Assembly: GCF_037975245.1 (NCBI RefSeq)
Contig: NC_092561.1
Location: 3,455,001 to 3,519,000 of the forward strand
DNA from: Apostichopus japonicus
Taxonomy: Eukaryota > Echinodermata > Holothuroidea > Aspidochirotida > Stichopodidae
Direction of reading: 5' to 3'
Length of the DNA: 64,000 nt
The translations under genes were made by a program, and so were the position numbers. Below, in pieces: positions 512 through 41,900 of this stretch (position 1 is the first letter of the stretch; each line of letters begins with the position of its first letter). The notes under the pieces were generated by a model that was not told the DNA's origin, searched no databases, and worked only from the letters and a program-made list of their open reading frames with translations.

Positions 512-3500
512 GGGTCATTCCATATCAAATCACCAAATTTTGGAGAATGCTGTAGTTCGACATCTTTTAATAAAATTCCCAAATTTATTGTATCATTGGA
601 ACACCATGATATAAGCATATTCTGCAAATTTCATTTGCATTGCTCCAAAATTGGCCGATTTATCATACTTTGATGCGAATATAGTCTATCCCATAGAACA
701 GGAAAGTAACAAATTAGGCTACAAAAACATTGTCTTGTGGTGTTAAGTTAACTTAAAAGTGTCAAAATATTAGATTTTGGTATTTTTCACTAAAAAATGT
801 GCTATTTTTAGTAATTAATTGCTCCTAAACCATTGCTTTAGGGTACTTGACTCTTTCAGAGGTTATTATGTCTAGTACAAACAATACAAAATAATGATTA
901 CAATGCTTTCCTATAGGGTCATTCCATATCAAATCACCAAATTTTGGGGTATGTTGTAGTTCGACATCTTTGCAAAATTCCCAAATTAATTGTATGAGTG
1001 GACCACCATAAAATAAGCATATTCTGAAAATTTCAGTTGCATTGCTTTACTATTGGCCGATTTAAAATTATTTGAAATTCCGCAATTTGTCGCCACCATG
1101 GCATTTTGGCATTTTCTTGACTTTTGAGGTCTCATTTCTCAGCAATTGAACATTCTACTACCTTTCTATTACAGATGCCTATAGAGTCTAACCCATAGAA
1201 CAGGAAAAGAAAAAATTAGGCTACAAAATATATTGTCTTGTGGAGTTAGGTCAACTTAAAAGTGCCAAAATATTTGATTTTTGTACTTTTCACTAAAAAA
1301 TGTGCTATTTTTAGTGATGAATTGCTCCTAAACCAATGCTTCAGGGTACTTGATTCTTTCAGAGGTTATTATGTCTAGTACAAACATTACAAAATAATGA
1401 TTACAACACTTTCCTATCATATGTTTGCAAGTTGTGCAACTCTAAAGTTGCTATATCATGCTGCGATTCAGCATGAGGTTTGGGTTTTGATGCCAATTCT
1501 TTACCAAAGTAACCATGTTAGAGCTGTCAGGGTTTATACTTTATTAATGAGTATAAAGTTCTTACACATTAACAAATTTCAGGGTTCTAGCTGTTCTCAA
1601 TATTAATTTATGAAGTTGTTAAGTTGCTCCGATGTTAAAAAGAGGTCGTTTTTGACGGCCAATAACTCAAAACACGTCAAATTAAAAAAAAATTGATATT
1701 TTTTTCTGCAAAAGATATAGTACCACCCTGTTTGTACAAAAAAATTCAGGAGGGTGTTTTGCCTTATTTTGAAATGAAAAATCCTTGGGATTTTTACAAA
1801 AAACGTTTTGCCTGTTTTGATGTTCCATGTGTTTTGAGCCTGGGTATTGTACTATACTTCAAGGTCATTCATTTCAATACTGTGCAGTTTTTAATTTCAT
1901 ATAAAAAAAAATACTATTTGCAATGTACTTGTCAGCTCCTGGTTGAATTTATTTCATAAGAAGACTTATAAAATGAACTTCAACCAGTACACACCTATGT
2001 ATGTACAGTGTGTACAGTACATACACTGTACTGGGTGTATATGTACGGAGTGCCATGAGTGCCAAAAGACTATGTTTAAACTAACACTAATATACACACT
2101 GTACATATACAATTGGTTGAATTAGAAGACTTTACTATAGAATTAATTTCAACCAGTACATAGATGTATATACAGTACAAAACTGTCCTGGGTGTACATG
2201 TACAGTGTGTTAGTGTGTTGTTCAAACATAGTCTTCTGGCACTCATGGCACTCCGTACATATACACTCAGTACAGTGTATGTACTGTACACACTGTAGAT
2301 ACATGTACTGGTTGAAATTCATTTTATAAGTCTTCTAATTAAATGAATTCAACCAGGAGCAGACAAGTACATTGCAAATAGAATTTTTTTATATGAAATA
2401 AAAAAATGCACAGTATTGAACTGAATGACCTTGAAGTGCAGTACAATACCTCAATACAGTACAATAGGCTCAAAACACATGGAACATCAAAACAGGCAAA
2501 AACGTTTTTTGTAAAAATCCCAAACTTTGAGGATTTTTCATTTCAAAATAAGGCAAAACACCCTCCTGAAATTTTTTGTACAAACAGGGTGGTACTATAT
2601 CTCTTCCAGAAAAAAAATATCAATTTTTTTTAATATGACGCGTTTTGAGTTATTGGCCGTCAAAAACGACCTATTTTGTACATCGGAGCAACTTAACAAC
2701 TTCATAAATTAATATTGAGAACAGCTAGAACCCTGAAATTTGTTAATGTGTAAGAACTTTATACTCATTAATAAAGTATAAACCCTGACAGCTCTAACAT
2801 GGTTACTTTGATAAAAAATTGGCATCAAAACCCCTACCTCATGCTGAATCGCAGCATGAAATAGCAACTTTAGAGTTGCACAACTTGCAAACATATTATA
2901 GAAAAGCAGTGTAATCATTATTTTGTAATAGTTGTAGTAGACATAATAACCTCTGAAAGAATCAAGTACCATGAAACAATGGTTTAGGAGCAATTCATCA
3001 CTAAAAATAGCACATTTTTTAGTGAAAAGTACAAAAATCAAATATTTTGGCACTTTTAAGTTGACCCTAACTCCACAAGACAATATATTTTGTAGCCTAA
3101 TGTGTTCTTTTCCTGTTCTATGGGTTAGACGCTATAGGCATCTATAATAGAAAGGTAGTAGAATGTTCAATTGCTGAGAAATGAGACCTCAAAAGTCAAG
3201 AAAATGCCAACATGCCATGGTGGCGACAAATTGCGGAATTTCAAAGTATGATAAATCGGCCAATTGTAAAGCAATGCAACTGAAATTTTCAGAATATGCT
3301 TATTTTATGGTGGTCCAATCATAAAATAAATTTGGGAATTTTTGGAAAGGGTGCAGCAACAGCCATCCGTGATTTGACACGGAATGACCCTATAACATAT
3401 TTGCAAGTTGTGCAGCTCTAAAGTTGCTATTTCATGATGCGATTCAGCATGAGAAAGGGTTTTTGATGCCAAATTTTGACCAAAGTAACCATGTTAGAGC

Positions 3501-5744: not shown

Positions 5745-6084
5745 CCTACGGCCCGCCAGTACTCTTTTGGCGGGCCCGTGAGATGTCCAAAGAATCTATT
5801 TCTATTTTACATCATCACAAAAAACGAGCTAGCTGCTAATAACTTATCGTCACTAGCGATGCTGTCAGGTAGGCCTATTTTCCCCATTAATTATCAACTG
5901 CATACTGTATTGACTTTATGTTTTTGTGAATACAGATTTAAGTATACAAACCTATTGCTTGAACGTCCTCGGAATCAAAGGTTTGAATTCAACAGCAGGT
6001 CGTTGGTTATAGGTGCGGCCCAGTCAATGTTTCACTTCTTATATCTGGCCCATTCATTCAAAGGTTGCCCACCCTTGTCTTAGA
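5745..6084. mobile_element. hAT-like non-autonomous element remnant
   Basis: The right end in reverse complement reads CAAGGGTGGGCAACCTTTGA, the type of terminus seen in Charlie/Buster-like hAT elements. The left part holds the hairpin GCCCGCCA...TGGCGGGC at 5751-5776. CTTAGAC occurs just outside both sides and may be a degraded target duplication. The left terminal repeat is not visible, so this is probably a truncated copy. It lies in the presumed first intron of the GTPase gene. Confidence 0.35.
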
Positions 6085-6170
6085 CTAAATGTACGAGAGA
6101 AATTGTTGGTGGAAGCAAAGTCGGGGAAAACTTTAAGTTAATTTCTCTACCGTGTTATGGAAAGTTAAGG

Positions 6171-6626
6171 TTGAATGATTACAGCCTTGTATTAAGCCTT
6201 TACACTAATTTCGATAATAACAAGACTTGCATCAGCGTCTTCCTTGACCTGGTCAAAGCATTCGACACAATTAACCACTCCATTTTATTATCCAAACTAT
6301 CTTTCTACGGAATCAGAGGAACAACCCTAAATTGGATAGACAGTTATGTCACAAATAGGTTACAATATACTACATAAAAGAATTCAAATTCTGGACTTTG
6401 TGAAATCGCCTGTGGTGTGCCTCAGGGTTCTGTTTTAGGTCCTTTGTTGTTTATTATATACGCAAATGATATCTGCCATGTCTCCAACATTGCTCATACA
6501 GTCTTATTTGCCGATGACTCCAATCTTTTCTTTCACTCGAGGAACGTGTATTCACTCCAAAGTACTGTCTCTTGTGAACTAGATAAGTTCTGTGATTGGT
6601 TCGCAGCAAAACAAATTAAGTATTAA
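6171..6626 (+). pseudogene. Non-LTR retrotransposon reverse transcriptase fragment
   Basis: The frame encodes reverse transcriptase core motifs in order. These are motif A (FLDLVKAFDTINH, catalytic Asp), motif B (GVPQGSVLGPLLF) and motif C (LFADDSNLF, catalytic Asp pair). One in-frame TAA at 6375-6377 breaks it between motifs A and B, and the frame ends at a TAA soon after motif C. No endonuclease or 3' end is recognisable around it. The motif wording suits the CR1/L2/Jockey group. It is a dead, truncated LINE piece. Confidence 0.8.
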
Positions 6627-7124: not shown

Positions 7125-7191
7125 ATGGCGGATCCGGATGAAATTCGTACGAAGCGTCAGAAAACAATCCATGACGAAGATACAGAAAAGG
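7125..7191 (+). CDS. DED-GTPase candidate coding exon 1
   Basis: It follows an acceptor ending at 7120. The start context is TTAAATGGCGG and it encodes 22 residues beginning MADPDEIRTK, then one base. The donor GTCAGA at 7192 is weak. Its phase matches the exon at 9940, which begins with two bases before an ATG. No other exon tests this join. Confidence 0.45.
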
Positions 7192-10100
7192 GTCAGAATT
7201 GTTCTTATTTTATTGGTGTTACATATACTTGACCCTTTTCCTATTTCCTTTTATATTGATTATAGTTTTGGCTAAGTCAATACTTCTGATAGGTCTGGTA
7301 TGCATTGTCGTGAATATCGATCTATATGGGGCTATCATTACGATCATGGCGCGACAGTAGAAACGTCCATGTTTTCGATTATCTGCAAGTCACGTGCTCT
7401 CTTGCCATCGGTTACTCAGGGTATATTTCAACCTTTCACCATTGTTTGTTGTGTAAATAGTAATAAGAGTCAACAAGGGCTGAAGTTTAACGTGTACGGA
7501 AAGCTAACGATTTATAGTATAGATTAGCGTGAATCTCTGTAAGAAGTATTTTATTTTGTAAGAACGCGGGGTAATATGTCGCTATATGCACTGCCACTAA
7601 TGCGCTATCATGTCTACAGGCACGTAAACAACAATAAAATACTGCATTTTAGTTGTCTTTACCATTTGAATACTTTAAGAAGCAAAACACTACCTTGGAT
7701 CATAAATGCCAGTTATACTATGAACAAATATGTTTTGAATGTTTGAGGAATGCATTGATGGTAATATACTAGTGTATCCATCAACTGGCAGTGGTAAATT
7801 GTAAGTCGTACAAACGTAATAGCATTTATGATAAAGGTTGTTAAAGGTTTATCATCTGTGCAGTTACTCTTTCTTTTGTTTTAAACAAATTTTGGCTTAG
7901 GTTTTTGTTTCTATAATAGCCCCCTACTCCAGCAGTCTACTAAGAGCAGGGTGCCCTGTAAGAAGCGAAAACATATCTATCTATTTTAAACACCTCCACG
8001 TTGTATGTGTAGTGGTAAAGGGTGTTCTGAGGTCAAGAGAGACTTAATCTTAAAAACGCTCTATCAAAAAGCCGTACCATGGACACAATATTTTGTGAAT
8101 GCATTGACGAATGCATTCATGGCATTAGTGTCTCAATTAGATGGCAGTGAATAACTTTAACAAAGAACTTTAATAAAGAAGATGTCCAAACGTGATCACA
8201 TTTAAAGATCAACTTTACAAGGTTTATCATAAGTGCAGTTACATACAATGCGACTGGCGGGTTGGTCGGCGCCATAAAACCGAGCGGGGCCCATGGGTTG
8301 GGTTTGGGAGCAGTCTGCATGGCGAAATTGTCGTTGATGTTCTAAGGTTTCTACGGTATTGAAGGCATGCAGCAGCACCAGCAGTAGGTGTACGTGTAGT
8401 AAAGGGCGGTTGTACGTGATAGTATGTTCCGGCCAGCTGCATCCGTAGCGGAGTGACGTCCCAGCGGATTATTAGTCTATAATTCTCTTGTACATACACA
8501 AGAGAATGCCGACGGTTCTTTGAGGACTATAGCAAAACAGCAGCAGCAGCAGTTACCCAATCGTACTTTTTAGAAACAAATCTTAGCTAAGAATTACGCT
8601 AATATCATAGCCAGCGGCTGCCTTAACCGACTGCGAGTTTTTTTTATGCAGGTAGGTTCGTACCATTGTGTATATTGAATAGCCAATCACAGCCAAGTTC
8701 ATTTTGACGTCATCAAATATGCACGTGTCACTCGCTCTAAAGCAGTAAGATTTGTAAACAATGTCAAGCTGATGCTGTATGAGCATTGTGAGTTCGAATC
8801 TCACATCTGCCGAAAATTTTTGTTGTTGTCATTAGCTCGTTTTTATCTTTTATTTTCTCCCAAACCAAGCATTTTTTGTTCAGAAATCTTTTTCATTTCT
8901 TCGCATTTTTATAACTTCCCAAGTGCAACCTTTACTGTGAACTCAATACAAATACAGTATTGTCTTCAACACATCACATACAACAAGAAAAAATGTTCCT
9001 CTGATTCTTTTTTAGATAAATGCTAGATCTTTTGTAATGTGTGTCACTGAAGCTGTGAAGGCAAAACTTAGAATAATGATTATTAGGCCTAACCTAGTAG
9101 CCTTTTAATGATACAATTTGTAGGTCTGTTATTATTTCAATTTTCAATGACTAAGTAATAATACTTTGTGTCAACTGCAAATTTCGCAAAACTACTCCCT
9201 GAACAATTCGTATGCACAAAGATACGTTAAGAAGATCACTAAGATAGGAAATTTGTGGCAAAGAATTCTTACCAGGTTTCCAAAATTTGGAAAGAACACA
9301 GATTTCATATTAAAAAACTAAAAATTTAGTCGGTGTATGGCTAAAGCTAAAGGAATAGCTTCGCTAGAGATTACTGCAGCATTGTTGTTGCATCAGGCTA
9401 GCTTGTCAGGTTGAACTTATCGACTTTAAATATTAAGTGTTTCATGCTCAGGCTAGCACGTCAGGTTGAACTTATCGACTTTAAATATTAAGTGTTTCAT
9501 GCTTTCCTTGTCATATTTGATGACGTCAAAATGAACTTGGCTGTGATTGGCTATTCAATATACACAATAGTACGAACCTACCTGCATAAAAAAAACTCGC
9601 TAACCGACTGAGAACACGGTATCACATACCGGAAATAAGTGCAAGTGAAGGCTACGATTTTGTCGTAGCTCTGGGCAAGTAACATTTGGATCAGAATTAA
9701 GGTATTAATGGAAATGAAACAAGTCTTCTGGATATTGCAATATACTATCGGTCTTTTGTATATCTATCTAATGGCATATATATATAAGATTTAATCTAAA
9801 CAAGGGGACATTGTTTAAAGAAATTTCCACCTTGTACACACTATTTTTTTCATTCCTATCCCAATTATACGCCCCACCCCCATTGTGACTATGGTGCTAA
9901 CAATGCCTACGAATTGTGTTGATATTCTAATGATTTCAGATATGCATGTTCAGATGAATCAAATTAAAATTGGGTATCGGAATGTCAATAGTAACATGAT
10001 CATTCCATTTCATTCGACAGATACACATTACAGGAGAATGCTTTACAAAGTAGGACAATGTTTAGTCAAGGAGGATGTTAGAAAACTGGCTATGATAGCT

Positions 10101-13100
10101 CATTTATCACCGAATGCTACTTCTGTAATATTGCAAGGAGACGAGGGTCACCCAGAAAAGTTGTTCACTACGCTCGAGAGGAAACTAACAATAGATTCAA
10201 CAAATGTCACGTGGTTAGAAGACAATTTACTAGAAATAGAAAACGAGAATGCTTTGGCACATGTGAAAGAGTATTTGTCTTCACTGATCGGTAAGACATG
10301 CGATCTTCTCACATATTTGTTCTTTATTGGAATATACTCTGAAATGTGGGTACTTATTATCTAACCTATTTGCTATTTGAGTTAAGTTTTGCCACATAAC
10401 ATAACTGTCGACAGTTTTAGCAGTTTTTTTGCCGATAAGGTGGTACATTAGTCAAGAGTATATTTCTTTCATTCAAATTTATACTCAACGTTGGCTAGAT
10501 ACACACGTAAATAGTGTTGGTTGAATATTTGACCAACTGAGGTGTATATATACACAAGTTTCTTCCCTCTGTTCGATAACAACCAACAATGAGACGAATT
10601 ATGTCATGAAAATCGTATTAGATACAGAACCAGGCACAATAATAATGTTTAAGTACTTATAAGACTCATTCGAAAGAAAGAATATTGCACTTTTGCACGA
10701 ACGAAAATCCTTTCACTTCGGGTTCAGGTCTGGTTTGGTCGATTGGTCTCTCACAACTTATAAACATAGCTATACTATTTTGGAATCGTTGCTGGGGTGT
10801 GTAGTATATAGTTTTTATTTTAATTTGATATCATTTTCAAACTAGCACATACACAATTTAAACAAAGGCATTGGCTTTTCATATGCCACAATTCACAGAG
10901 TTGCCTGTTATACTTCGGGATACTCAGATGAAACAATCTACCACATTCTGAATCACTATACATACAATGTACTGGGAATAACATGACACCCCTGGTAAAG
11001 CTATCGATGCTCAAGAAAGACTCAACGAATAGTGTCACGATTGTTTTCGAAAATTGTTGACATTCAAAATGCTTGAACATTTTCCCAAAAAAATCCAATG
11101 CCTATCGCGTAAAATCAATTGTACAAATATGGTGCTGCTTAATGTTAGCTATAGACAAGAAGGACTCAACGAATGTGTTTATTCAAAAGTTTTCTCCCTT
11201 TAGTTTTGCATTTGATAAAATCTGAATAACCAGCGTCATGTTAGTTATCGGTAACATTGCACATTTAAATTGGAGCCCCACATTCGAACCAATATGCTCA
11301 CATTAATTGCAGGCCCCAGACCACTTTCACAGATTAATTACTCGCGACATGATTGACCATGATGCAAAACATACGTATTAATATATATTAATAACCGCAA
11401 TATCATGCATTAACTTAAGGAGATGCCGGGGTGTGGGGAAGAGGGTGCATGTAAATATAACATTGGACGTCTATGACGGTTGGTGTTTGCATTTCTGTCA
11501 TACTTCACATATTTTTTTATCTTTTATAAAACTGCAAAAGTGAGCTATTGTTGTTTGGATTGTGAGGTCAATAAAGGAGATGCATATAGAAAAAAAAGTT
11601 AACGAATGCCGCGACTTTTGTTATTAAATGATTTATTGTTCTTTATTCCTTAACAGAAAAAGTTAATGATCTACCAAGTGAGCCTGACACTGATAGCAGT
11701 GATGAAAGTGACCTGAGAGTAAGCACTTTCAATGGCTTACTCAAGGACTTTGGCTTGGAAAAGAAGTTTCCTGGAAAATTGAACCTGAACGCTTTTCTGA
11801 AGGTAAAGTGCAAAGTTGATCCAACTCAGTCGGTTGATTTTTTCTGGCAGAAACTAACATCATTAGATTACCGAGCTGGTTTTCCACAGAACTATGCTGC
11901 AAATTCATTCAGTATGAGAGATTTTGTTTTTTCAGTATTACACTGTGCTGATGATTTTCTGCGGCAAGATATACTTGAAAAAATGGCTGCATGTCAGCTG
12001 GCGGTCCCGGTTATCCTTCAAGGTATCGAGGGAACCAAACCGCAATTCTTACTGTGGGCTTTGCGACGAATCATAAAGAAGTGGAAAGGCAACCGTGACT
12101 CATATGCCTCCGAGCAACTGATAGCCACTTATCCTATATTTACTGTTTCTGTCCTTCGGATAGGAGACGTAAGGGTATCAAAATCAAGCCTACTAAATAC
12201 GATGTTGGGATACAGTCAGGGAAACTCATTGCATTCGTTCTTTTTATCGATGGAAAAAGATATTGTTAAGCCGCATTTTTCTGTTGGTTCGATAGAATGT
12301 GTGTGGTTTTTGCCACAGTATGGTAATGACGACGAAATTTTTCAAGAAGTCACTGCGTTCTTTAATCTGCGAGGTGATTGTACTAAGCATCGAGTTCAAA
12401 CGGAGTTTGCCTGTAAGGCAGCAGACTTAACGATTGTACTAATTTCAACTGGGAAACGCGACAAATATATCGATGTCATTAAGAAAATTAAGATAAACGC
12501 AAGCAAAACGCTTTTTGTTGCCATTAAAGAAGAAGACAAACATATGCGAACACAACAAAAGGTCTACAACCCTCAATTCAAGGACGGGTGGCTCTTTGTA
12601 AAAGTGCTTCAAGTTGACGTTCTAAGTCGTCATATTTGCAAGCATATTTCTTTAACAAATCCAAATCCAAATCAATACCGAAGCTTAGAATCATTAGCAA
12701 ATATATGTAGAGATGATATCGATATTGATGAAAATAAGTGGATGTGCAAAAATGCCAAGAAAAGTGTTCATGACATCTTTGAGTCTGTAAGCTTAGACAA
12801 CATAATTGAGTTTAAAAAAGTTACTTTCCCTTTACAAGATTATTGGCTCAATTTGGTTCAGTTGGATGAAGAACCATCCCTGTCAGATGGAGAGGGAGAA
12901 TCTTTAGAAGATCAGAGAAAAGCGGCACAAATAAAAAAAGTAACAGTTAGAGAAGAACAGATGCACGCAAGTCTCTCAGAACCAATTAAACGTTACCATT
13001 CTATTGTAAGTTCTAATAAAAATAATTCAAAAATGTTGAAATACATTTTTGGGTATTTACAAGATTTCATATACCGGATGGTCAACAAGAGCACGCAAAA

Positions 13101-16100
13101 TGACTTTGAGAAGATGTTAGATTTAGAAGAACAAATACAAAGTTACAAGAGGGGTAAGCGCAAAGGAGACACAAAGAAATTTTCGGAAGAAATAAGTAAT
13201 TCGAAACATGGCAGCACTGCTGAAAGTGCTTGTGAAAGCCAGCAATGTGCCCTCAAGTATTTGACTAAACAGTGTAAAGCAAAAAATTTAGGTTGCGAGC
13301 ATTTCCTCCGAGAGTTAGGGCAACGCTTTGAAGCATATAAAGAGGCTAAAGTCCAGGAACCATGCGAACCTAACATGGCTGACTTGAGTTTACTACCTGC
13401 TTTGGCTGCTCGACTTGTTACTGAAATGCATTCATTGGAACTTATGGATGGAGATGCAGGGAGCGTTCCTTTGGTATGGATAACAAATGTTCTTGACACA
13501 CTAACACATACTTTAGGTGATCCTAAAGTATTTGTTATCAGCGCAATTGGCGTACAAAGTAGCGGTAAGTCCACATTGCTGAATAGCATGTTTGGTCTTA
13601 AATTCCCAGTGCGTGCAGGCCGTTGCACTCGTGGACTGTTCATCCGCTTGATACAACTCGAAGAATCCCTTGTAGATGAGCTAGGGTTACAATATTTACT
13701 GATAGTGGACACTGAAGGAGTCCGATCTGTTGAGCATGAAGGTCGAAGATTTGACAATGAACTAGTGACTCTTGCATTGGGCATTGCCAATTTCACCATT
13801 TTTAACATCGAGGGAGAGAACATAGGTCCAGACATGACTGGAATATTGCAGATCGCTGCGCACGCACTCATGAGAATGAAAGAGGTCGACATTGAATGTC
13901 AGTGCAGGATTGTTCAACAACGGGTTTCGGATTTAACTGCAGCTGACAGGAACAAAGCAAATAACGATATAATCCTGGAGACCTTGGATGAAGCAACAAA
14001 ACTTGCTGCGGAAGAGGAAGGATTGAAAGGGCGATATCAACGGTTCTGTCATGTGGTCAATCTTCATGTTGACCAGGGGTTGCAATACATACCGTGTCTT
14101 TGGTCAGGAGGGATGACTCCTCCAAATCAAATGTACAGTGAAATTGTGACAAAAATAAAAGCAAAGCTCATTCAGGATATCCGAGATAAAGTTATCATAC
14201 CTGATATGACAATGTCCACATTTACAGATCGAGTACGAGATGTGTGGCAGGCGGTAAAAAAAGAACATTTCATCTTTAATTTTCAGGACAGTGTTAAGGC
14301 AGTTGACTATAATAGGCTTTGCCTTAAATATAACGACTGGATTCTACACATGCGGCATCAGATGATGCTTGCCACAGAAAGCTGCTATGCTGTTCTGGAT
14401 GGACAAATAGATAAAGTATTAACTATACAATTGACAGATGAACATAATGTTGAATCAACTAAAGACGACGATGAAACCAAGGCAGTAGATATCGAAGAAA
14501 TGAAGGCAGTTCTAAATAAGGAAGCTGTAAGTCAAGAACAGCAGTTAATTCGATCAATTGAAGACTACATTGAAAAACATCCACGTAAGAATACCGTGTT
14601 GAGATACAAGGAAGGGTTTATAAACGATTTAACTCTAGTCGTGCGAGATGTTGAAAACCAAGCATCAGCATCGGTGCAGGATGAATACGAACTGACTAAA
14701 ATACGATATGATATACCAAAATTTCGAAGCGAATGGCGATTTAAACTTTCTTATGAAGCTAAAATGTTAGCAAGTTCGGTTTCCGATGACTCTGAAGATC
14801 GCTCAATTTTGTTTGATGAAAACTGGAACGTTTGGATGACCTCCGTTGCGAACAGTAGTAAGCTCCTGAAGACAAATGTTTCGTTGGATTCTTTGCAAGG
14901 AATTTGCGAAAAGCTCCTTTTGAGGATTACCAGGGGAATGGCAGTCGGGAGTGAAGTGAAACACCTAATGACGGAGGAGGGTGGTATTGACAAACATTGG
15001 GAGCTCTGTGACTGTCGTCGTTACATCCATGACAAATTTGTGAGAGCGTGGTTAATGCAAAGTATGGATGAGAAAAAACCGAGAGCTGATTTCTTCGAGA
15101 TTGAAAGGAAACAAGCTCTTCTCTATGTTCAAGAAGTCATCGACAGAAATCACAGACAGATGATTGATGGGAATCGTGGCAAGTCATTCGATGTAAATAC
15201 ATTCCAGCTTATGCTACAACGGGCATTGAAAGAGCTCACTGGGGGACCCAAGTTCAAACTCCCTAATGCTCTTATTGCCAAGGGTCTCCTACATTTGTCA
15301 AACAAAGCTTTCAAATCTTTACAACTGACTGAAGACGGCTCTCAGTGTGAAAGCACATTTCTTTTGCAAGTCGAGAAAGATGCTATATTTGACGATTTTT
15401 TAGCATTTATACATAAGGACAATACGGAGATTGCTACTAGAGCTGCCGAATCAATTTACTATTTCATTGAACCTATTTACAAACAGAAGACTGTTCAAAC
15501 CTTAACAAGTGTAAAGGAAGAATTTGTCCGTCAAAATGATTTAATTGATAAATTAAGAATATGTCGGCCTTGGGATATTCTTCGTTGGATAGTTGAAAGA
15601 GAAGGTCATAATTTTGGTTATTTAATTGGACTTTTAGGAAGCAAGCTCCTCTATGATGTTGTACTTGAAGAGAAGTTCCAGAAAATCCGCCAGAAATTCA
15701 GCAGTATATTACACTCAAAAATACAAGAAATCGTTAATCTTCTAATTGAAATGATTAATGACATTGACTCGACTTCCAAACCAGGCCCTTTTCTGAAGTG
15801 GCTATGTAAATTAAGTACCACAACAGATTGCTTGGCTCTCCAAACACTAGACTCTTTATATGAAATAGAGAATGTCGATGAGGTTTCTGATATCTTAAAA
15901 AGCATAATAAAAGAACGTCTGTTTGAATCATTGTTACAAAGCATAGAGGAATCAATATATCTTAGTTTTTTCTTACATGGATATAGCTTGAATTTCGGCA
16001 ACATTTGCGATGAAACGTGCCCATTGTGCGGAGTGCCATGTGATAACCCCTTTATTCTCCACATTGAGCATTCATCATTCCTACACCGTCCGAGGGGTTA

Positions 16101-16473
16101 CAAAGGTGAAACTTACCCCGAAACGAAAAAGCTCATAATTGAAGACTGTACAGCTTCTGTGGCTTCAAAAACAGCCACATTTATATGTAACGACAAATAT
16201 ATTCCTTGTCAAGCGTATCAAAGTGTTCATCCAAATTGGCACATAAAACCTACCTCCACGAATTACGGTCTGAAATTCTGGCAATGGTCAATGGCACGAG
16301 GCAATGACTTACTAGCAGTAAACTTCAAGTGCGAGAAAGCAGACATTCCATTAGCATGGTACAGTATTGATAAAAAATTGGCGCTTCAAAGCCTGGATTT
16401 GGACCAAGAAGCAAAAGTCAATGGTCGCCAAAAGTTAAGTAATACCAACTTTTCAGACATTGATCTCTCATAA
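7125..16473 (+). CDS. Death-effector-domain-containing very large GTPase (GVIN/VLIG-like), three coding exons
   Basis: The model joins 7125-7191, 9940-10290 and 11657-16473. The joins keep phase (1 then 1) and give 5235 nt, or 1744 aa. Residues about 52-135 read as a death effector domain. Residues about 300-430 resemble the degenerate N-terminal region of URGCP/GVIN proteins. The G domain has the P-loop GVQSSGKST at 771-779, GRCTRG after it, and DTEG at 824-827. The C-terminus has a CxxxCxxCxxxC cluster starting at C1590 followed by HRPRGYKG, typical of the family. VLIG-family proteins are large cytosolic GTPases induced by interferon in vertebrates, so an innate-immune role is inferred. Coding of nearly everything in one giant exon is usual for this family. 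The first exon is the least certain. Confidence 0.85.
7192..7740 (+). other. Intron 1 of the GTPase gene, unremarkable part
   Basis: I see no domain-bearing frame or repeat here. A 75-codon open frame at 7300-7527 has no recognisable similarity. Confidence 0.35.
7741..8430 (+). repeat. Diverged direct duplication of roughly 350 bp
   Basis: Segments near 7741-7880 and 8105-8245 share GAATGCATT, TAGTGT, GGCAGTG and AAGGTTTATCAT..GTGCAGTTAC in the same order. A second match pairs about 7990-8030 with 8380-8420. The copies are well diverged, so the boundaries are approximate. Confidence 0.4.
8720..8812 (+). pseudogene. Degenerate tRNA-like sequence (type II, Leu-like)
   Basis: The 3' half is tRNA-like. 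A T arm GTGAG-TTCGAAT-CTCAC occupies 8788-8804, followed by a seven-base acceptor strand ATCTGCC and discriminator G. A possible long variable arm TGCTGTATGAGCA precedes it, as in tRNA-Leu and tRNA-Ser. A TTTT run follows shortly after. The 5' acceptor strand (GGCAGAT expected) and a proper D arm are absent, so this is not a working tRNA gene. Confidence 0.5.
9394..9503 (+). repeat. 55-bp tandem duplication
   Basis: Units 9394-9448 and 9449-9503 are almost identical. Both run from CAGGCTAGC to TTTCATGCT. It lies inside the 968-bp element beside its right terminal repeat. Confidence 0.85.
9940..10290 (+). CDS. DED-GTPase coding exon 2 (death effector domain)
   Basis: The acceptor is TTCTAATGATTTCAG ending at 9939. 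The donor is GTAAGA at 10291. The exon encodes residues 23-139. The block starting YRRMLYKVGQCLVKEDVRKL and continuing to HVKEYL follows the six-helix death effector domain pattern seen in caspase-8. The helix-6 RxDL motif of many DEDs is replaced by ENENAL. An alternative is that translation starts at the ATG at 9942. Confidence 0.75.
10291..11656 (+). other. Intron 2 of the GTPase gene
   Basis: It is bounded by GTAAGA and TTCCTTAACAG. A 92-codon frame on the minus strand (10820-11098) has no recognisable domain and is not annotated. No transposon is recognised. Confidence 0.7.
11657..16473 (+). CDS. DED-GTPase coding exon 3 (giant exon, VLIG-type G domain)
   Basis: The exon starts after TTAACAG at 11656 and stays open for 1604 codons to a TAA. 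It begins with an acidic linker (SEPDTDSSDESDLR). The degenerate P-loop-like GDVRVSKSSLL, the linker with LSDGEGE, the intact G domain and the Cys/His-rich C-terminus follow in order. The completeness of the frame argues for a working gene. Confidence 0.92.
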
Positions 16474-22909: not shown

Positions 22910-24133
22910 TCAAAGCTTGAGTTGCTCTAAGGAAACATACTCTTGTTTCTTGTCTATAGAAGTATTATTATCGTTCACATTGTTACCCTTTGTATAATAC
23001 CGTGCTATTATTGGTGCGAGATACTTCGGGTCAGCTAATCGTCGATGTCTCCGGGATGTTACGTAGCTAACGATCAAACCCAGTACGACACAGGTACATC
23101 CTGTAATTAACGATATGTACATGTAACTGATGTGGAAAAAGGAGTCATTTTCGGGCTTGTAAGGAGCATACATGTCTGAAGATGATGTTGTTAGTTCGGT
23201 AATTTTTGTCATCTCACTTCCTGCGAAATTGTCTATGTAGTCACTCACATTAACATTAGTAATGAAGGACGATACATTACATCCTGACGTAGACATTGGC
23301 GGGAGGTGTTCATCTGGTGGGGAGATTCTAGATCCTACATATTTGATCAAGCCAATTAAAGACCCGCCAATCAATCCTACCAGCACACCAGATGAATTTG
23401 CTCTGGGGAAAAACAAGCCTAAAATAAATACACCCAAAATAGGACCTCCCAGTATTCCCCCTATTGCGATTGAGGTTTGTAAAACATCTCCCAGCACGGA
23501 CGCAAGAAATGCTAAAACAATTGTTAAGATACCGTAAATGGCGGAGATGATTTTGACCAGCATAGAATACTTCATATCGGACATGTCTGGCCATATTGTC
23601 TTGATAATGTCCTGACCAGTCGCGGCAGCCAACCCATTCAATACTGAGGACATTGATGAGAGAGAAGCACAGAATGCTCCCCCTATCAGGATCCCAGGTA
23701 CCCCTGGGTAAGAATGGAAGACATCCATCATAAAGTAAGGTACGATTTGATCGGGACGACTTATCTCTCCTGAAGTTAGTGGATCGCAATCGTAGTAATA
23801 GGCGTACACGGTCATTCCAGTAATCACTGCTAACAATTCGATCACTCCCATTCCAATCATACCGAACCAGGCGGCTCGCTTAGCATCTCGTTCAGTTGCA
23901 CAGGAATTGTATCTCTGTATGACACTTTGCTTTGTTCCACCAATCATGGTCCACAAAATGGAACCACCGATCATTATGTTCCAGAATGAAATTCGAACAG
24001 TCGGATCTATGTTGAAATCTACAAGCTTTCCGCGTCCTCCTTCCTCCGCTCTTCGCCAACCTTCGCTGGGTCCACCTATCGATACTGTACCAACCACAAT
24101 CATAACGGTGGCTCCCAGAATCATGGAGACAGC
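22910..24133 (-). CDS. SLC5 transporter exon 2
   Basis: The acceptor reads TTTTCATATTACAG on the minus strand, just above 24133. The exon encodes 407 residues from AVSMILGATV to EQLKL and the stop. It carries most of the membrane helices, the loop with potential glycosylation sites and a hydrophilic cytoplasmic tail. Confidence 0.92.
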   Translation of the reverse strand, partial: AVSMILGATVMIVVGTVSIGGPSEGWRRAEEGGRGKLVDFNIDPTVRISFWNIMIGGSILWTMIGGTKQSVIQRYNSCATERDAKRAAWFGMIGMGVIELLAVITGMTVYAYYYDCDPLTSGEISRPDQIVPYFMMDVFHSYPGVPGILIGGAFCASLSSMSSVLNGLAAATGQDIIKTIWPDMSDMKYSMLVKIISAIYGILTIVLAFLASVLGDVLQTSIAIGGILGGPILGVFILGLFFPRANSSGVLVGLIGGSLIGLIKYVGSRISPPDEHLPPMSTSGCNVSSFITNVNVSDYIDNFAGSEMTKITELTTSSSDMYAPYKPENDSFFHISYMYISLITGCTCVVLGLIVSYVTSRRHRRLADPKYLAPIIARYYTKGNNVNDNNTSIDKKQEYVSLEQLKL

Positions 24134-25194
24134 CTGTAATATGAAAAGAAACATTTTAATAATTGCGAGTGCAATTTGCATATTAATTCTGGTACAGTGA
24201 AATTCCTGGAACGAATGATGTTTCAAAGTTACATGTTAAGTCATTTCTTTTATGCTATAAATATTCCCTATTGTTTCCGATAATTTTTTCAATCGTCAAC
24301 ATCTTCCTGATAGTGATGCAATAGTCAATTTATGAAGATAAATATTATAGCTTGATCTAAATTCTAGTCATGGACTTTATTAAAATTCATTGAGACTAGC
24401 AGAATATGTTGAAATTGGCCAAGCCGATTGCATATCATTAGTTTCCTCATGGTTTTGTAATATAAAAGTTGACAAAATAGGTTAAAGATCGTTGTACAAG
24501 GAATAAGAGAATTGAAATTTCCATTTCGGATTCTGACAATTCTTCTTCCTATATGGTTTCTTATGTTAACCTCCCAGAAAGGAATCTCCTACAAAAGAAA
24601 ATATCTAATATATGTGCAGTGTATCATTACCTGGAATACATCCGTCCATATGACGGCTTTCATGCCTCCAATTGTTGTATAGAAGGTACAAATTATCCCA
24701 ATGGATAGTATGGAGAATGATAAATTTATCCCCGTCACGGTGCTCAGAGCCAAGGCCGGTGTGTAGACTACGATTCCCATGTATATAAAATCATTGATTC
24801 CAGTAATTGCTACCACTACAAATCTCACGGTATTGTTAAATCTCAACTCGAGATACTCAAACATCGTGGTCAGCTTCAGGCGATAAAAGACCGGTACAAA
24901 ACAATACATTATGATTAACGGTACGTGAGCACGCACCACGAACATCAGTCCATACTGAGGGCCATGAAGGTAAACCTCTGCTGGTGTCCCGAGGTAGGTT
25001 ATAGCAGACATGATAGTTGCTGCTAGAGATATTGCTACTGGTATAACGGACATCCCTCGATTACCAAGGAAGTAATCATTGGAAGATTGATGGCGTCCGG
25101 ATCGAACCCCAAAGAAGACACCTATGCCAGCCGAAACGGCCAACATCGCCACGATGATAATGTAATCGAAGATGGATAATACGAGAGTTTCCAT
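22910..25194 (-). CDS. SLC5-family sodium-coupled solute transporter (SMCT/SMVT-like), two exons
   Basis: The model joins 24631-25194 and 22910-24133 in phase 0 and gives 595 aa, the usual size for SLC5A5/6/8/12 proteins. The family moves substrates such as monocarboxylates, biotin/pantothenate or iodide with sodium across the plasma membrane, through about 13 membrane helices. Family hallmarks include LGTPAEVYLHGPQYG, the GGMKAVIWTDVFQ signature, QSVIQRY, and the Ser-rich helix LSSMSSVLNGLAA that contributes to the second sodium site. NxS/T sites in the loop around NVSSF and NVSDY suggest N-glycosylation. The substrate cannot be told from the sequence. SMCT (SLC5A8/12) looks closest. Confidence 0.93.
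24134..24630 (-). other. SLC5 intron (497 bp)
   Basis: It runs from GTAATG to ATTACAG on the minus strand. Nothing else is recognised in it. Confidence 0.9.
24631..25194 (-). CDS. SLC5 transporter exon 1
   Basis: It starts METLVLSIFDYIIIVAMLAV and ends TDVFQ at the donor CAG/GTAATG. It encodes 188 residues. The start fits the family, whose members begin a short way before the first membrane helix. Confidence 0.92.
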
Positions 25195-25920
25195 ATTTAT
25201 TTTGATTCGTGTGGTTGTCCTGTAGTAGACACTTTGGCAATAACTCTGTACAAAGGAAATTCGTATAATGACTCAGCAATTAAAATACTCATGTTCAGAC
25301 CTATAGACAACCTAAAAAAAGAAAACTTTTAAAATAGAAAAGTTGATTCAGTTTTCCCTAACATTGAAAGACAAGAACAATATAAAGTACCTTGTGTCCT
25401 ATATATAAAATTATCCTATATATTCTTAAGAAATGATTGGAAATAATACATAATTACTAGAGAGGGGGAGGGTGGGAGCACATTAAAGATCATTATTTAA
25501 GGGAGGACTTATTTGGGCAACCCTGCCAACCCAAGTATAGCATATATACACGCAACATTACTTGGATCTTAGTTTCTTTGAGACAAATAGACTTGTTAGG
25601 ACAAATGATAAGCTTGTTTTATCGAATAGCATAGTAAAAAGCTCAGAGTGCGTTTAGGACTCTAACATCAGTTTTCCTATGTTCTAGACTAAATGGAAAG
25701 TTTGCATGTCATCCTTGTGTTAGATTCTGGCTACGTGTCAGTTTCATGTTTACGATCTAAAGGCAGCATTTATAAGACTTCAAGTGATTGTAAAAACAAC
25801 GATTTGTCAACAACTGTAAAACTATAAAGACCTGATATTTTGGAGTACAATGACTTTGCGATTCGTTCATATTTGTTTATCATAGAATTATTGATAACTC
25901 GAGAATGTCTTTAATTGCTG
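25195..25920. other. Upstream region of the SLC5 gene, nothing recognised
   Basis: The promoter of the minus-strand transporter should lie here or beyond. No clear TATA or other element stands out. Confidence 0.35.
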
Positions 25921-28325: not shown

Positions 28326-28816
28326 GTTTCCAAGATATTTCCATGATATGTACATGTAACTAAATTGAAAGAATGAAGAATTTTCAGGTTTGTATTAAGG
28401 AATATCACTACCCGACGAGGATGTGGTTAGTTCGATATAGCGCGTAATTTCACTTCCCGTCAAATCTTCTATGTATATAGTCACTGTCATTGCCGCTAAC
28501 TGCATTAGAAATGAAAAATAACACAAAGCATCCTGACGTTGATATGGTGGCAGATGCTGACTTGTAGAGGGATGAATTTAGATCCTTCATGCTTTCTAAC
28601 ACCAATTATTAACCCGTCAATCAATCCTACAACTATATTCAACATGAATTTGCTCTGGGGAAAAACAAGCCCAAATTGAATACACCCAAAAATGGTCCCA
28701 ACAGTCTTCCTATCGAGAGAGCAGTTTGTAAGACATCTCCCAAAACGGACGCAAGAAGCGCTAAAACAATTGTTACGATAGCGTAAATGGCGGAGATGAT
28801 TTTGACCATCATGAAA
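28326..28816 (-). pseudogene. Partial SLC5 transporter duplicate, broken
   Basis: On the minus strand it encodes MMVKIISAIYAIVTIVLALL and onward to FFPRANSC then a stop. This closely follows the intact gene's MLVKIISAIYGILTIVLAFL block. Beyond the stop, DNA similarity to the intact gene continues through the region matching about 23105-23565, with small insertions and deletions. It lacks the rest of exon 2 and all of exon 1. It is a non-processed partial duplicate on the same strand. Confidence 0.85.
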
Positions 28817-35900: not shown

Positions 35901-38900
35901 CTTAGATAGTGTCGAAAGCGCCCCTACAGACCATTCTCTCCCCCCTGACCTATACCCCTAGCTCCGCCACTGGCACCTACTGAAAGAAGAAGAATTTGCA
36001 ATGTGTTTTTCAATGGTTAAACTTATATTATTATTATCATTATTGTTGTAACGACTTCCCCAATAATTATAACCAATATGGAAGGGTAATAACACAGAAA
36101 ATGATTGTATGTTATTGGCATGCGATGTAAAAACCGATGCATGCCTATATGATATGAACATTAACATGTGGAACGCGTGCGGAGCGCGCAAAAAATTTTG
36201 GTTATATTTTTCGGGCAAGTAGTTACAGCCCCCCCCCATTATTGCATTATGGCCTAATGTGTGGTCATTTATTTACCGGTGCTGACCGCTACATTACCAA
36301 TGCATTAGTGCCTAATGTGTGGTCATTTTTTATTTACCAGTGCTGACCGCTACATTAACAATGCATTAGTGCCTAATGTTTGATCATTTATTTACTAGTG
36401 CTGACCGCTACATTACCAATGCATTAGTGCCTAATGTGTGGTCATTTATTTACTAGTGCTGACCGCTACATTACCAATGCATTATGGCCTAATGTGTGGT
36501 CATTTATTTACTAGTGCTGACCGTTACATCACCAATGCATTAGTGTCTAATGTGTGGTCATTTATTTAGTAGTGCTGACCGCTACATAACCAATGCATTA
36601 GTGCCTAATATGCGGTCATTTATTTGCTAGTGCTGACCGCTACATTACCAATGCATTATTGCCTAATGTTTGATCATTTATTAACCAGTGCTGACCGCTA
36701 CATTACCAATGCATTAGTGCCTAATGTGTAGTCATTTATTTACCAGTGTTGACCGCTACATTACCAATGCATTAGTGCCTAATACTGTATGCGGTCATTT
36801 ATTTGCTAGTGCTGACCGCTACATTACCAATGCATTATTGCCTAATGTTTGATCATTTATTAACCAGTGCTGACCGCTACATTACCAATGCATTAGTGCC
36901 TATTATGTGTGGTCATTTATTCACTAGTGCTAACCGCTACATCACCAATGCATGACTGCCTAATGTGTGGTCATTTATTTACCAGTGTTGACCTGTTAAC
37001 CTGTCCTTCAAGGGGAGAAGTTTAGGTAGAAGTTTAGTCTTCATATGTTATATAGTTTAAGAAATAGTAGAATTTAGTGCCACTTATGTTTCCATGTCAG
37101 TATTAAGATATTATTCAACTTTGAAATAGTCTAAAAAATTGATAACTGCAGTAGGCTGAACATTTGGCCGACAACTGCACTGTATCCATGATGTAACTCA
37201 GCCGTGAACTACGATTACTTAAAAATGCATTCATGCTAGCTTGGACTATGGAAGCTCACTAAGCTCCGAAATCTGTTAGTAGAATAATCTGGAAAATTCC
37301 TGCAAGGAAACGAAGATTTACAGCCACCCACTGTTGTGTTGCAGGCCATAGCTTACAGTTGGCCACCTTAGACTTATACATTAATTACAATAATTACATT
37401 AATTAGTGTACCAGTTTTACCAAGGTAGAGACTAGTGAGAGGTTCATATAATCTTAGCTACTGTCACTGATAATTTGTTGCTTTTTTCTTATATCACTGA
37501 TCAGTTTATAATATTTTAATTTTTATTTATTTGATCTGCACAATATCAACATAAACGTAATCACAGACACTTTGTATAACACAAACAATAGTGTATGCAT
37601 ATTTTATGCACCATTTTGTTGGGTAATGTGGTGCCTGGAATGCAATTATATTGGAGAACCCATCTACCTGTACGACCCAAGGAGATCTATATGATTACGT
37701 ATTAGGCGTTCAGCAATGAACATGTTTAAAAGCTTTGTGGGGAAACCCCTCTAGGTTACAGTTTCCATGATGTCAGGAGGCCTTATTATTCCTATACTGT
37801 ACCTAAAATTGTGCATATATTGTACACACAAAAACACAGTATACAAATAGCTGGTTGTTTTGCAAAGTGTGAAATAGCATTTGTATTGAATGAATGCCTA
37901 TAACAGGTATACAAAAGCCAAACAGAAAACGTTTACAAACTAGGGTCTTTTGAATTTGCAGTACTTAGCTATTTGACCCCATCAAATTTTCAAGGCCAAC
38001 GGTTAACTTTTGCATAAAACACTGTCCTGAAATTGTGGGAAGACTCGCGCAAAAAGAAACGTCTAATGCCAGTAATCTGACCAAGTTTCAAATGAGGTGC
38101 AACAGAAGTGTTAGACACCACCATCGATCCCAGAAAATACACACACAGCTTGATACCGTCGGTAATTAGACACTAGTGTACAGTCAGTACATATAAAGCT
38201 GCGGTCAATACCCACAGCACAGTGTACAAACGATACAGCGATGGACATCTCAGGTCCAGCTAAAGATATTACAAGATATCACGTTTCTTTACTGTCTGCA
38301 TTTTGTAGCGACAAGAGAAAACCTTCACTTGCAAGCAACGGAAAGTTAACTTTTTAAAGATGGCAGCACGCTGTTTTGGGCGAGTCTTCAATGCATTTAA
38401 GTGCTGGACATTCATGTACGTGTCTGACGAGAGGTCATGCCAGATGGAGGGTATCTGCAGCAGTGCATTACCCAATTGTCTGGCCATGCTAGTGTCAACT
38501 CTTAAATTATGGTTGCCATGGGTAATAAACAGGTGCCATTATAAATTGCTATTCGATTTGGATTAAATATTTATGCAGAGTGCATTGCCTGGTCGTGTAC
38601 AGTGTTCCAAGACCAGAATAAATAGTTACCATGTTTAGTTCTACAAGTACCCCTTCAAATGTTCTACAGTACCCCTTCAATGTTCTAGCATACCCCTTCA
38701 ATGTTCTTTGGTAAAATTTCTTCCTTTTATATACAAATTCATGACTCTTAGCCACTGTTAGCACAAGACATACACCAAACCAGCAAGTTTAGTACAAATT
38801 AGTTACCAATATCAGAATGAATTGCTGTACATTAGTTTGCTAATTTATCAAAAGAAACTTCAGATGCAATAATAGTTGCAATAATTTTTCTACCCTGTTT

Positions 38901-41900
38901 GATTAGAGCATTGATATTTAAGTGAATTAGATAGGTTAGAATTGAGAAGTCTTATTCAACACACAGTGTATATTCTCATTGCAGTTGAGAAACAGTTCAA
39001 AATGGAAATTGTACTTGATGGAGTCTTTAGTCTAGAAATATTATAACATTGTCACTGACAAAATGAAACCATATTCAAGACTAATTAGATATATAAAGCG
39101 AAACAGAACCAGATCTACCACACATACTGAATTTGATGGAATGTCAAGAATAATAGCCGACTGTTGTCTGGTATTTTCTCTTAATATCTGGTTTCACTTT
39201 GTGGAAATATTTTGTGCAGCGTTATTCTGTATTGTTTAACTTTAGATATTGTACAGCCATCAGTTTGAAACATATGTTTGATTTTATTTCATCAGACTTT
39301 GACCAGAAGGTAGGACAAAATCAAACAATTAAATAGTATATTCTGTTTGCTTGAGATGTAAAGGTGTTGAAACTTTATGAAAGGCTTTAGATTACAATAG
39401 TAGAGTGTGCCTAGTAGTTGTTGGCATATCATTGCAGTATTTCAAAACCTAGTCATATTTAGCCAAGGACTGCACTAGTTACCTACATGTACACTACTGG
39501 TGCTAAAATGTATGGAAGCTAGTTTGGACTTTGGTTGTCTAGCAGCTGCTGCAAAATAAATAAACTGTTAGTTGATAAATGAATGTGTAGTAAGGTCCCT
39601 TGTGGAGGTGGACTTCAATACAGCATTACAGTATACCTGTACAGTCGTACGTAAATTATAGAAAGAATCATCCCGCTTCAAATGCTGCATCATATGTACA
39701 GGTCTGATCCTGGGGCAGACTGTGTGATAACGTGCTACTAGTAGCAGCTCAGTGATGCTGGGACCTTTGAAGCAAGAGAAATTGATGCTTAAGGCAGTGG
39801 TAGAGCGTCCATACAGTCAGGGGGGGCGGATGCCCCCCCTGATGGACTCAAATAGACTGCTGGCGCCCTTTCAGCTTTTAACCACTTTTTACTTATTCGC
39901 GACTATTTACTTTTTTATTGCGCTCTCATCTACCTATTGACATTTGTCACATTTTGTTGGCGATGACACCTATTTATTCTTCGTTTATTCGCAAATTAGC
40001 AAGGCCAGGAAAGGGTCATTTCCGGCGATCTAGGAAGTATCTTTACTCAAAAAATGTCTGTAAGCTCTGTGCTATCCTGTGGTGGCGCTCCACTTAGATA
40101 GTGTCAAAAGCTCCCCTACTGACCATTCTTGCCCCCCTTGACAAATACCCCTAGCTCTGCCACTGGCTTAAGGCACATGAAATTGGAATTGCCGCTATGA
40201 ACCAGCTGCAGATGGGTCGACTTTAGTGGAAATATCTGCACCGGACAGGGTTCTCAAAACTATGATTAATTTAGTTAGCAAGTATGCATGTACAGTATGT
40301 ACTGTACAATATGTATGTATTTTAGATCCTCCTGCAAGCAGGAACTTGCAAAGAAGCTAGCATTGGCTTATCAAAGCCGCAAGCTGACCGAAGTCAGTCT
40401 CTTACCTTCATATTTAACGTCCATGATTATGAATTGTCAATTGTCAAGAACTCACTTAACTGAACTACATACACTAATCGTGTAGTGACTCGAACTCGGG
40501 ACCTTATGATTGAAAGGCACCGGCATTTACTCCTGAGCTAACACTCCAGTGTTTAATTAACTAATTAACTAATTATGAATGGGAAGACGTTAGAGGGCAG
40601 GTCCAAGCTATTGTATCCCTAGAAGCCAAATTTCAAACTTTACTGAAGCACCCTAAATGTGGTGTCATGTTAAAGCTGAATTATTGAAGTTTCAGATTTT
40701 CATAATTTTTAAATTTTTTTTTGCCTATTCGAACAATTACAGCCAGCTAATTTGCATAAATTCAAGTTGCAGTGTGACGTACGGGACATTTGGAATCCTA
40801 TTTCGCTGCCAGCAATATGAACTTATTGAATATAAGTTATGTGGGACATGATACACCCTTCCTTCCAATAATTTTGACAAATTATGTTTGGGGGTTCATC
40901 AATTAAATATGCTAATTAGCCACTGTCCAAATACTGATGTCCCGTACGTCACAATTTTCAGCACTTTTTTTCAAGTTTTGATATGGACGAACAATTTTTT
41001 TTTGGTGATATTCTGTAAAGTTCTAATTAAGAACATTGTTCAACAAAATCCATCCCAAAAAAATTGAAGAAATATTCACAGCAAATATAATTATCAAAAT
41101 TAAAAATGTGACGTACGGGACAAAATGTGACGTACGGGACATAGTGTGGGGGAAACCCTGTATTTATACATAATAAACATGCATGGGCTCCAATGGGGAC
41201 CTCTACTGGAAACCTTCCAATGCTTACCAATTTATTTTGTTGAAAGATGGTAGTTGCAACTTACAATCCCTGCATGCCTGAAGAGCACAACATGGCTTCA
41301 AATAAACCATTGACTGATGACCACCAACAGCCCAGGTGTTGTTCAATATACTATTGGGAAGTCAATTGTTGTGTGTGTGTGGGATACAGAATCATCTACA
41401 ATGCTATTCAACATTGACATTGAATGAGGACGACTTCAAGAATGTTGAGTTTGCATTTCAACATTTCGTAGGCCTATTGTGAAGTGTGACTATCATGACT
41501 GTGCAACAATGTTCTTGTGTCCTGAACTTAGATAGTAGACATTGAGATTTTTAGTTACAAGTGTAGAGTTTTGCTCGCCCAATTTTTGCAGAGGACAATC
41601 ACTCATGAGTTTGTTCAATAATCAGTATTAGGTCTATAGAGTTGTACTAGTTTCATAGATGGACATTACATTGACGTTACTGTGGACATTTTGATATGTT
41701 TTGAATGGGATGGATCGTATTTCAACTTGAGGGTTAATAGTGGGGAGTATGATACAGTGTTGTACAGTATACAATATACCAAAACAGTTTTGCACCAAAA
41801 CTTTGCATCATGAATCATTTGTGGTCTAACAAAGCTAGAATTGATGTTATGACTATTTGGTCTGGTAACCAGTATTAGGTCTATAGAGTTTTCTTTGTTG

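Follow-up and report, generated by a model that had tools for sequence, protein, structure and literature searches.

A predicted sea cucumber gene combining a death effector domain-like exon with a VLIG-type giant GTPase

Gene model and surroundings

The window (the whole stretch of 64,000 nucleotides that was analysed, with a G+C content of 36%) carries on its + strand a predicted gene of three exons, which encodes 1717 residues and whose giant last exon, 1604 codons long, continues the open frame. The exons and introns of this revised model are:

7125..7191, + strand: probably the first coding exon, with 22 codons and one further base, beginning with ATG; donor GG/gtcaga, rank 170 of 3675 GT sites
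7192..10020, + strand: intron 1 of the revised model, placed by splice and codon scores; contains an inverted-repeat element
10021..10290, + strand: exon 2 as revised (9940-10290 in an earlier note), encoding the DED-like domain; placed by acceptor and codon scores
10291..11656, + strand: intron 2, with the donor ranked 51st among 3675 sites and the acceptor 36th among 3591
11657..16473, + strand: giant exon 3 including the stop codon, within the open reading frame (ORF) 11632-16473 of 1613 codons; acceptor rank 36 of 3591

Splice sites were ranked by scoring all GT (3675) and all AG (3591) sites in the window against a generic consensus, and coding signal was followed with a codon score trained on exon 3. 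The earlier note had proposed exons 7125-7191, 9940-10290 and 11657-16473, which indeed join in phase and give 1744 residues with a terminal stop only. The in-phase join onto the giant exon was thus retained, but the acceptor at 9940 was probably placed 81 bases too early: it ranks 601 of 3591 AG sites and scores 2.6, versus 7.2 for the site opening an exon at 10021, the best-scoring acceptor within 9400-10100. The codon score amounts to -0.039 for 9942-10019 and +0.161 for 10023-10289, so the coding signal starts near 10021. Because of the stronger acceptor and these codon scores, exon 2 was redefined as 10021-10290 and the weaker site at 9940, which is followed by no codon signal over 9942-10019, was rejected. 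Both acceptors have the same phase (G/AT) and produce an identical junction codon. Exon 1 is the least certain exon of the predicted model; its unspliced frame meets a stop at 7230, and its donor must therefore precede this position.

The surroundings of the gene contain several repeats. Within intron 1, the element at 8633-9600 has inverted arms (8633-8721 and 9512-9600) of 89 nt that are 99% complementary and 790 nt apart, like those of a small DNA transposon; an ORF inside it (8679-9023, + strand) shows a weak Pfam match to CMC4 (E 0.0049, 17.6 bits, cut-off 28.9), which is probably due to chance. A 2.5 kb stretch at 912-3394 is 89% identical to its own reverse complement and forms a large palindrome-like repeat. 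Reverse transcriptase fragments, LINE-like by reading, lie just upstream of the gene (6084-6626) and at 50688-51326, and tandem-like repeat arrays were seen as offset self-matches at 36243-36998, 41619-42869, 45039-45790 and 54536-55426. On the - strand, two ORFs at 22910-25272 match the sodium:solute symporter family, and 28345-28812 resembles 23112-23563 (73% in DNA), perhaps as a tandem relative. Between 16474 and 22909 neither strand has a stop-to-stop ORF of at least 150 aa, and therefore no other large single-exon gene lies close downstream. A second copy of the gene in the window was rejected: besides the gene itself, tblastn returned nothing at E ≤1 and only three 15-residue alignments at E ≤10. 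Rfam at gathering thresholds and a tRNA scan found nothing.

Domains of the giant exon and of exon 2

The products of exons 2 and 3 were compared with profile collections, which gave the following domains and regions:

10029..10274, + strand: DED-like domain, residues 26-107 of 1717; PF01335, E 9.5e-7, 29.4 bits, profile positions 1-79 of 82
11914..12777, + strand: URGCP domain, residues 199-486; PF25496, E 9.9e-62
13234..14139, + strand: URGCP/VLIG-type GTPase domain, residues 639-940; PF25683, E 1.5e-86
14140..16470, + strand: C-terminal region of 777 aa that gave no Pfam match, with a cysteine cluster CPLCGVPC at 16018-16041

Both URGCP domains of the giant exon exceed their curated Pfam cut-offs, PF25496 (URGCP) with 209.4 bits against 27 and PF25683 (URGCP_GTPase) with 291.1 bits against 55, and weaker matches were obtained to the RHD3, GBP, dynamin and MMR_HSR1 GTPases. 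The G domain contains both a P-loop of the GxxxxGKS type (GVQSSGKST, 13549-13575) and a DxxG-type motif (DTEG, 13708-13719). From these matches and motifs the giant exon is therefore assigned by sequence to the VLIG/GVIN GTPases, in itself an ordinary member, and the VLIG/GVIN G domain claimed in the earlier note is confirmed far above the cut-offs. A further P-loop-like stretch within the URGCP domain, IGDVRVSKSS at 12160-12189, has SKS in place of GKS and is read as a degenerate site. The segment between the two domains (12778-13233) gave two sub-threshold Pfam matches, to URGCP_GTPase (E 0.038) and to Adeno_E1B_19K (E 0.11), the latter taken as chance. Other collections added little: phmmer of exon 3 against the PDB produced weak GTPase matches only (best E 0.084), its three NCBIfam matches are all far below cut-off, and PADLOC and PHROGs profile searches gave no match. 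Among non-animal contigs no relative of the giant exon was confirmed in the pattern-matching stretches (0 of 9 in viral_contigs, 0 of 6 in genome_contigs).

Death effector domains (DEDs) are modules that recruit death enzymes. Exon 2 is probably a divergent member of this group, judging from its sequence. Its match to PF01335 is significant and nearly full-length (79 of 82 positions) and was also obtained with the untrimmed exon of the earlier note (E 2.4e-6, 28.1 bits), yet the 29.4 bits stay below the curated gathering score of 35.9, and three human DEDs reached 74.7 to 90.2 bits in the same scan. Because this cut-off is missed, we call the domain DED-like and do not file it as a PF01335 member. 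Of the families that the earlier note had listed for a profile check (DED, CARD, PYRIN and DD), DED was matched below its cut-off and none of the others was; the trimmed exon hit no Pfam family besides DED at E up to 10, and a CARD, PYRIN or death domain was rejected as the alternative. When the 607 ORFs of at least 40 aa in the window were scored with an HMM built from four DEDs (three human proteins), that of exon 2 came first (E 3.6e-4); the runner-up had E 0.45, and no second DED-like ORF in the window scored better than that. None of 2000 shuffles of the exon reached its 17.8 bits in this HMM (best shuffle 11.7). An hhalign comparison with DED run by our own script gave a probability of 60.2, with no more than 6.2 in any of 100 shuffles, whereas only 22.2 (E 0.00095) came from the comparison tool when the profile served as query. 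In the PDB, phmmer retrieved three weak, unrelated matches for exon 2 and no DED, and NCBIfam had no match for it. A chance ORF was rejected for exon 2, its codon score being reached by 0 of 4024 non-coding windows, which overlap, were read in a single direction and come from regions also used as background.

The predicted interaction surface was inspected by alignment with human DEDs. Helix alpha1 reads HYRRMLYKVG and is close to both DEDs of caspase-8, its LY motif aligning with DED1 and DED2. The charge triad E/D-RxDL is usual in DEDs and not universal. Exon 2 has N-E-N-A at the RxDL positions, and caspase-8 DED2 likewise has no RxDL in the alignment, so its loss is no proof of inactivity. 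A tyrosine of exon 2 occupies the place of Tyr8, a residue of procaspase-8 that contacts FADD according to the available part of PMC4558505; the same text names a hydrophobic patch, rather than RxDL, as the surface through which FADD and cellular FLIP make contact, and describes RxDL as having mattered in a viral FLIP. In the alpha2/alpha5 patch a methionine stands at the place of FADD Phe25, next to an insertion of three residues, which leaves the alignment uncertain there. The surface thus appears in part caspase-8-like and in part unusual.

One gene or two, and the possible role of the fusion

We consider it likely that the DED-like exon and the VLIG GTPase belong to one gene. The profile matches and the exon phase uphold the earlier proposal of a DED-like domain on a VLIG-type GTPase, which is qualified by a DED score below the cut-off. 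In exon 3, 85 open codons precede the first methionine (11914), reaching back to a strong acceptor, and the donor of exon 2 is strong (rank 51 of 3675) and in the phase that matches exon 3; the splicing itself is predicted. An improbable alternative is an ordinary VLIG gene made of the giant exon, beginning at Met 11914 or using another upstream exon, with the DED-like exon part of another gene or a relic. This methionine coincides exactly with the start of the Pfam URGCP match, so a shorter VLIG could start there, and LINE-like and inverted-repeat elements occur in the region. The 85 open codons leading back to the strong acceptor, the well-ranked donor in matching phase and the codon score of exon 2, which no overlapping non-coding window matched (0 of 4024), speak against it. 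We think it very improbable that exon 2, though coding and spliced to the giant exon, encodes some other helical bundle with a chance resemblance to DEDs: such a reading would fit the sub-threshold Pfam score, the lack of a PDB match and the weak hhalign result in one setting, but not the shuffle and ORF controls or the near-full coverage of the profile.

As for function, we lean with moderate confidence towards a GVIN/VLIG-type giant GTPase with a divergent N-terminal DED that, clustered by assembly, would recruit DED partners. By analogy with GBPs and with modelled human GVIN1, GTP binding and hydrolysis would drive dimerisation of the GTPase part and higher-order assembly; for GBP1, dimerisation upon GTP binding and hydrolysis, and polymerisation of the dimers, are described in the accessible text of PMC11974893. 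Assembly would gather many DEDs, and these could seed binding to further DED proteins, of which a FADD or caspase-8-like partner is the most plausible; a coat or scaffold would in this way be converted into a death or inflammatory signal. We infer the link to caspase-8-type proteins. Evidence from the sequence that weighs against GTP-driven DED signalling comprises the sub-cut-off DED score, the absence of a DED among the PDB matches, N-E-N-A at the RxDL positions, the methionine aligned with FADD Phe25 and the hhalign probability of 22.2. A more specific scheme, in which a GVIN-type coat laid onto an invader in a nucleotide-driven manner concentrates the DEDs and recruits a caspase-8-type protease within a single chain and through no adaptor, seems doubtful to us; if true, it would merge a GBP-style coat and a death-inducing complex in one protein.

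The main rival to recruitment by clustered DEDs accepts the fusion but assigns the DED an inhibitory or non-death adaptor role, similar to PEA-15 or FLIP, in which it would cap or compete with DED chains and restrain killing by the GTPase. We regard this role as unlikely. It would agree with the changes at the RxDL positions and, apparently, in a portion of the alpha2 patch, and a single DED that comes with no caspase domain is also found in PEA-15, DEDD and DEDD2 (PMC4558505, as far as available); however, caspase-8 DED2 also has no RxDL in the alignment, and the precedent of zebrafish Gbp4 is an activating one.

Comparison with known systems

No description of a DED-VLIG fusion was present among the open-access matches listed, a scope outside which most subscription journals fall, and the available parts of PMC5094078 and of the GBP review PMC9005921 do not mention VLIG. 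It is plausible that this pairing of known immune parts is new; the architecture may already stand in a domain database. The function of VLIG/GVIN proteins is little known; in 2025, human GVIN1 was reported to form an antimicrobial coat (PMC11974893, PMC12133148). A natural fusion with a death-fold domain would be a genetic hint that VLIG/GVIN assembly feeds into death or inflammatory signalling, in line with what the CARD-bearing Gbp4 suggests for GBPs, and it makes a direct test of this connection possible.

One of the most similar known systems is human GVIN1/VLIG of the URGCP group, with which the model has both its URGCP domain and its VLIG-type GTPase domain in common. Two large-GTPase domains are predicted for GVIN1, which forms coats on bacteria (PMC11974893, text available in part), and this pair is paralleled here by two P-loop-like sites; unlike in our model, the N-terminal domain that this part of the paper describes is not named as a DED.

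The pairing extends a known theme, represented by zebrafish Gbp4 with its CARD and by DED-TRADD-N proteins fused to GBP GTPases. Like the model, Gbp4 combines a large immune GTPase with a death-fold domain, and its link to caspase activation resembles the one proposed here; in contrast, it is of the GBP and not the VLIG type, its CARD is at the C-terminus and it requires Asc. In the available text of PMC4932187, caspase-1 activation by Gbp4 needs GTPase activity and acts through Asc, and the GTPase activity is dispensable for Asc oligomerisation. Because an adaptor was needed and oligomerisation proceeded independently of GTPase activity, recruitment may not as a rule be direct and GTP-driven. 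In invertebrates, some TRADD-N proteins of the DEDD2 clade, which usually carry a DED, are fused to AIG or GBP GTPases (PMC8195603, in the portion available). They too bring a death-like domain together with an immune GTPase, whereas the model has a GTPase of VLIG type and no TRADD-N match: the segment following the DED (11659-11913) matched none of the Pfam families at E ≤10, with HMMER filters that drop most weak matches. DED-NACHT proteins, which are reported from amphioxus, sea urchin and Nematostella (PMC2575513, in its available part), also place a DED on an NTPase switch, which in their case is a NACHT and not a VLIG GTPase; if the pairing proves conserved, VLIG would be a further NTPase switch to which animals have fused a DED.
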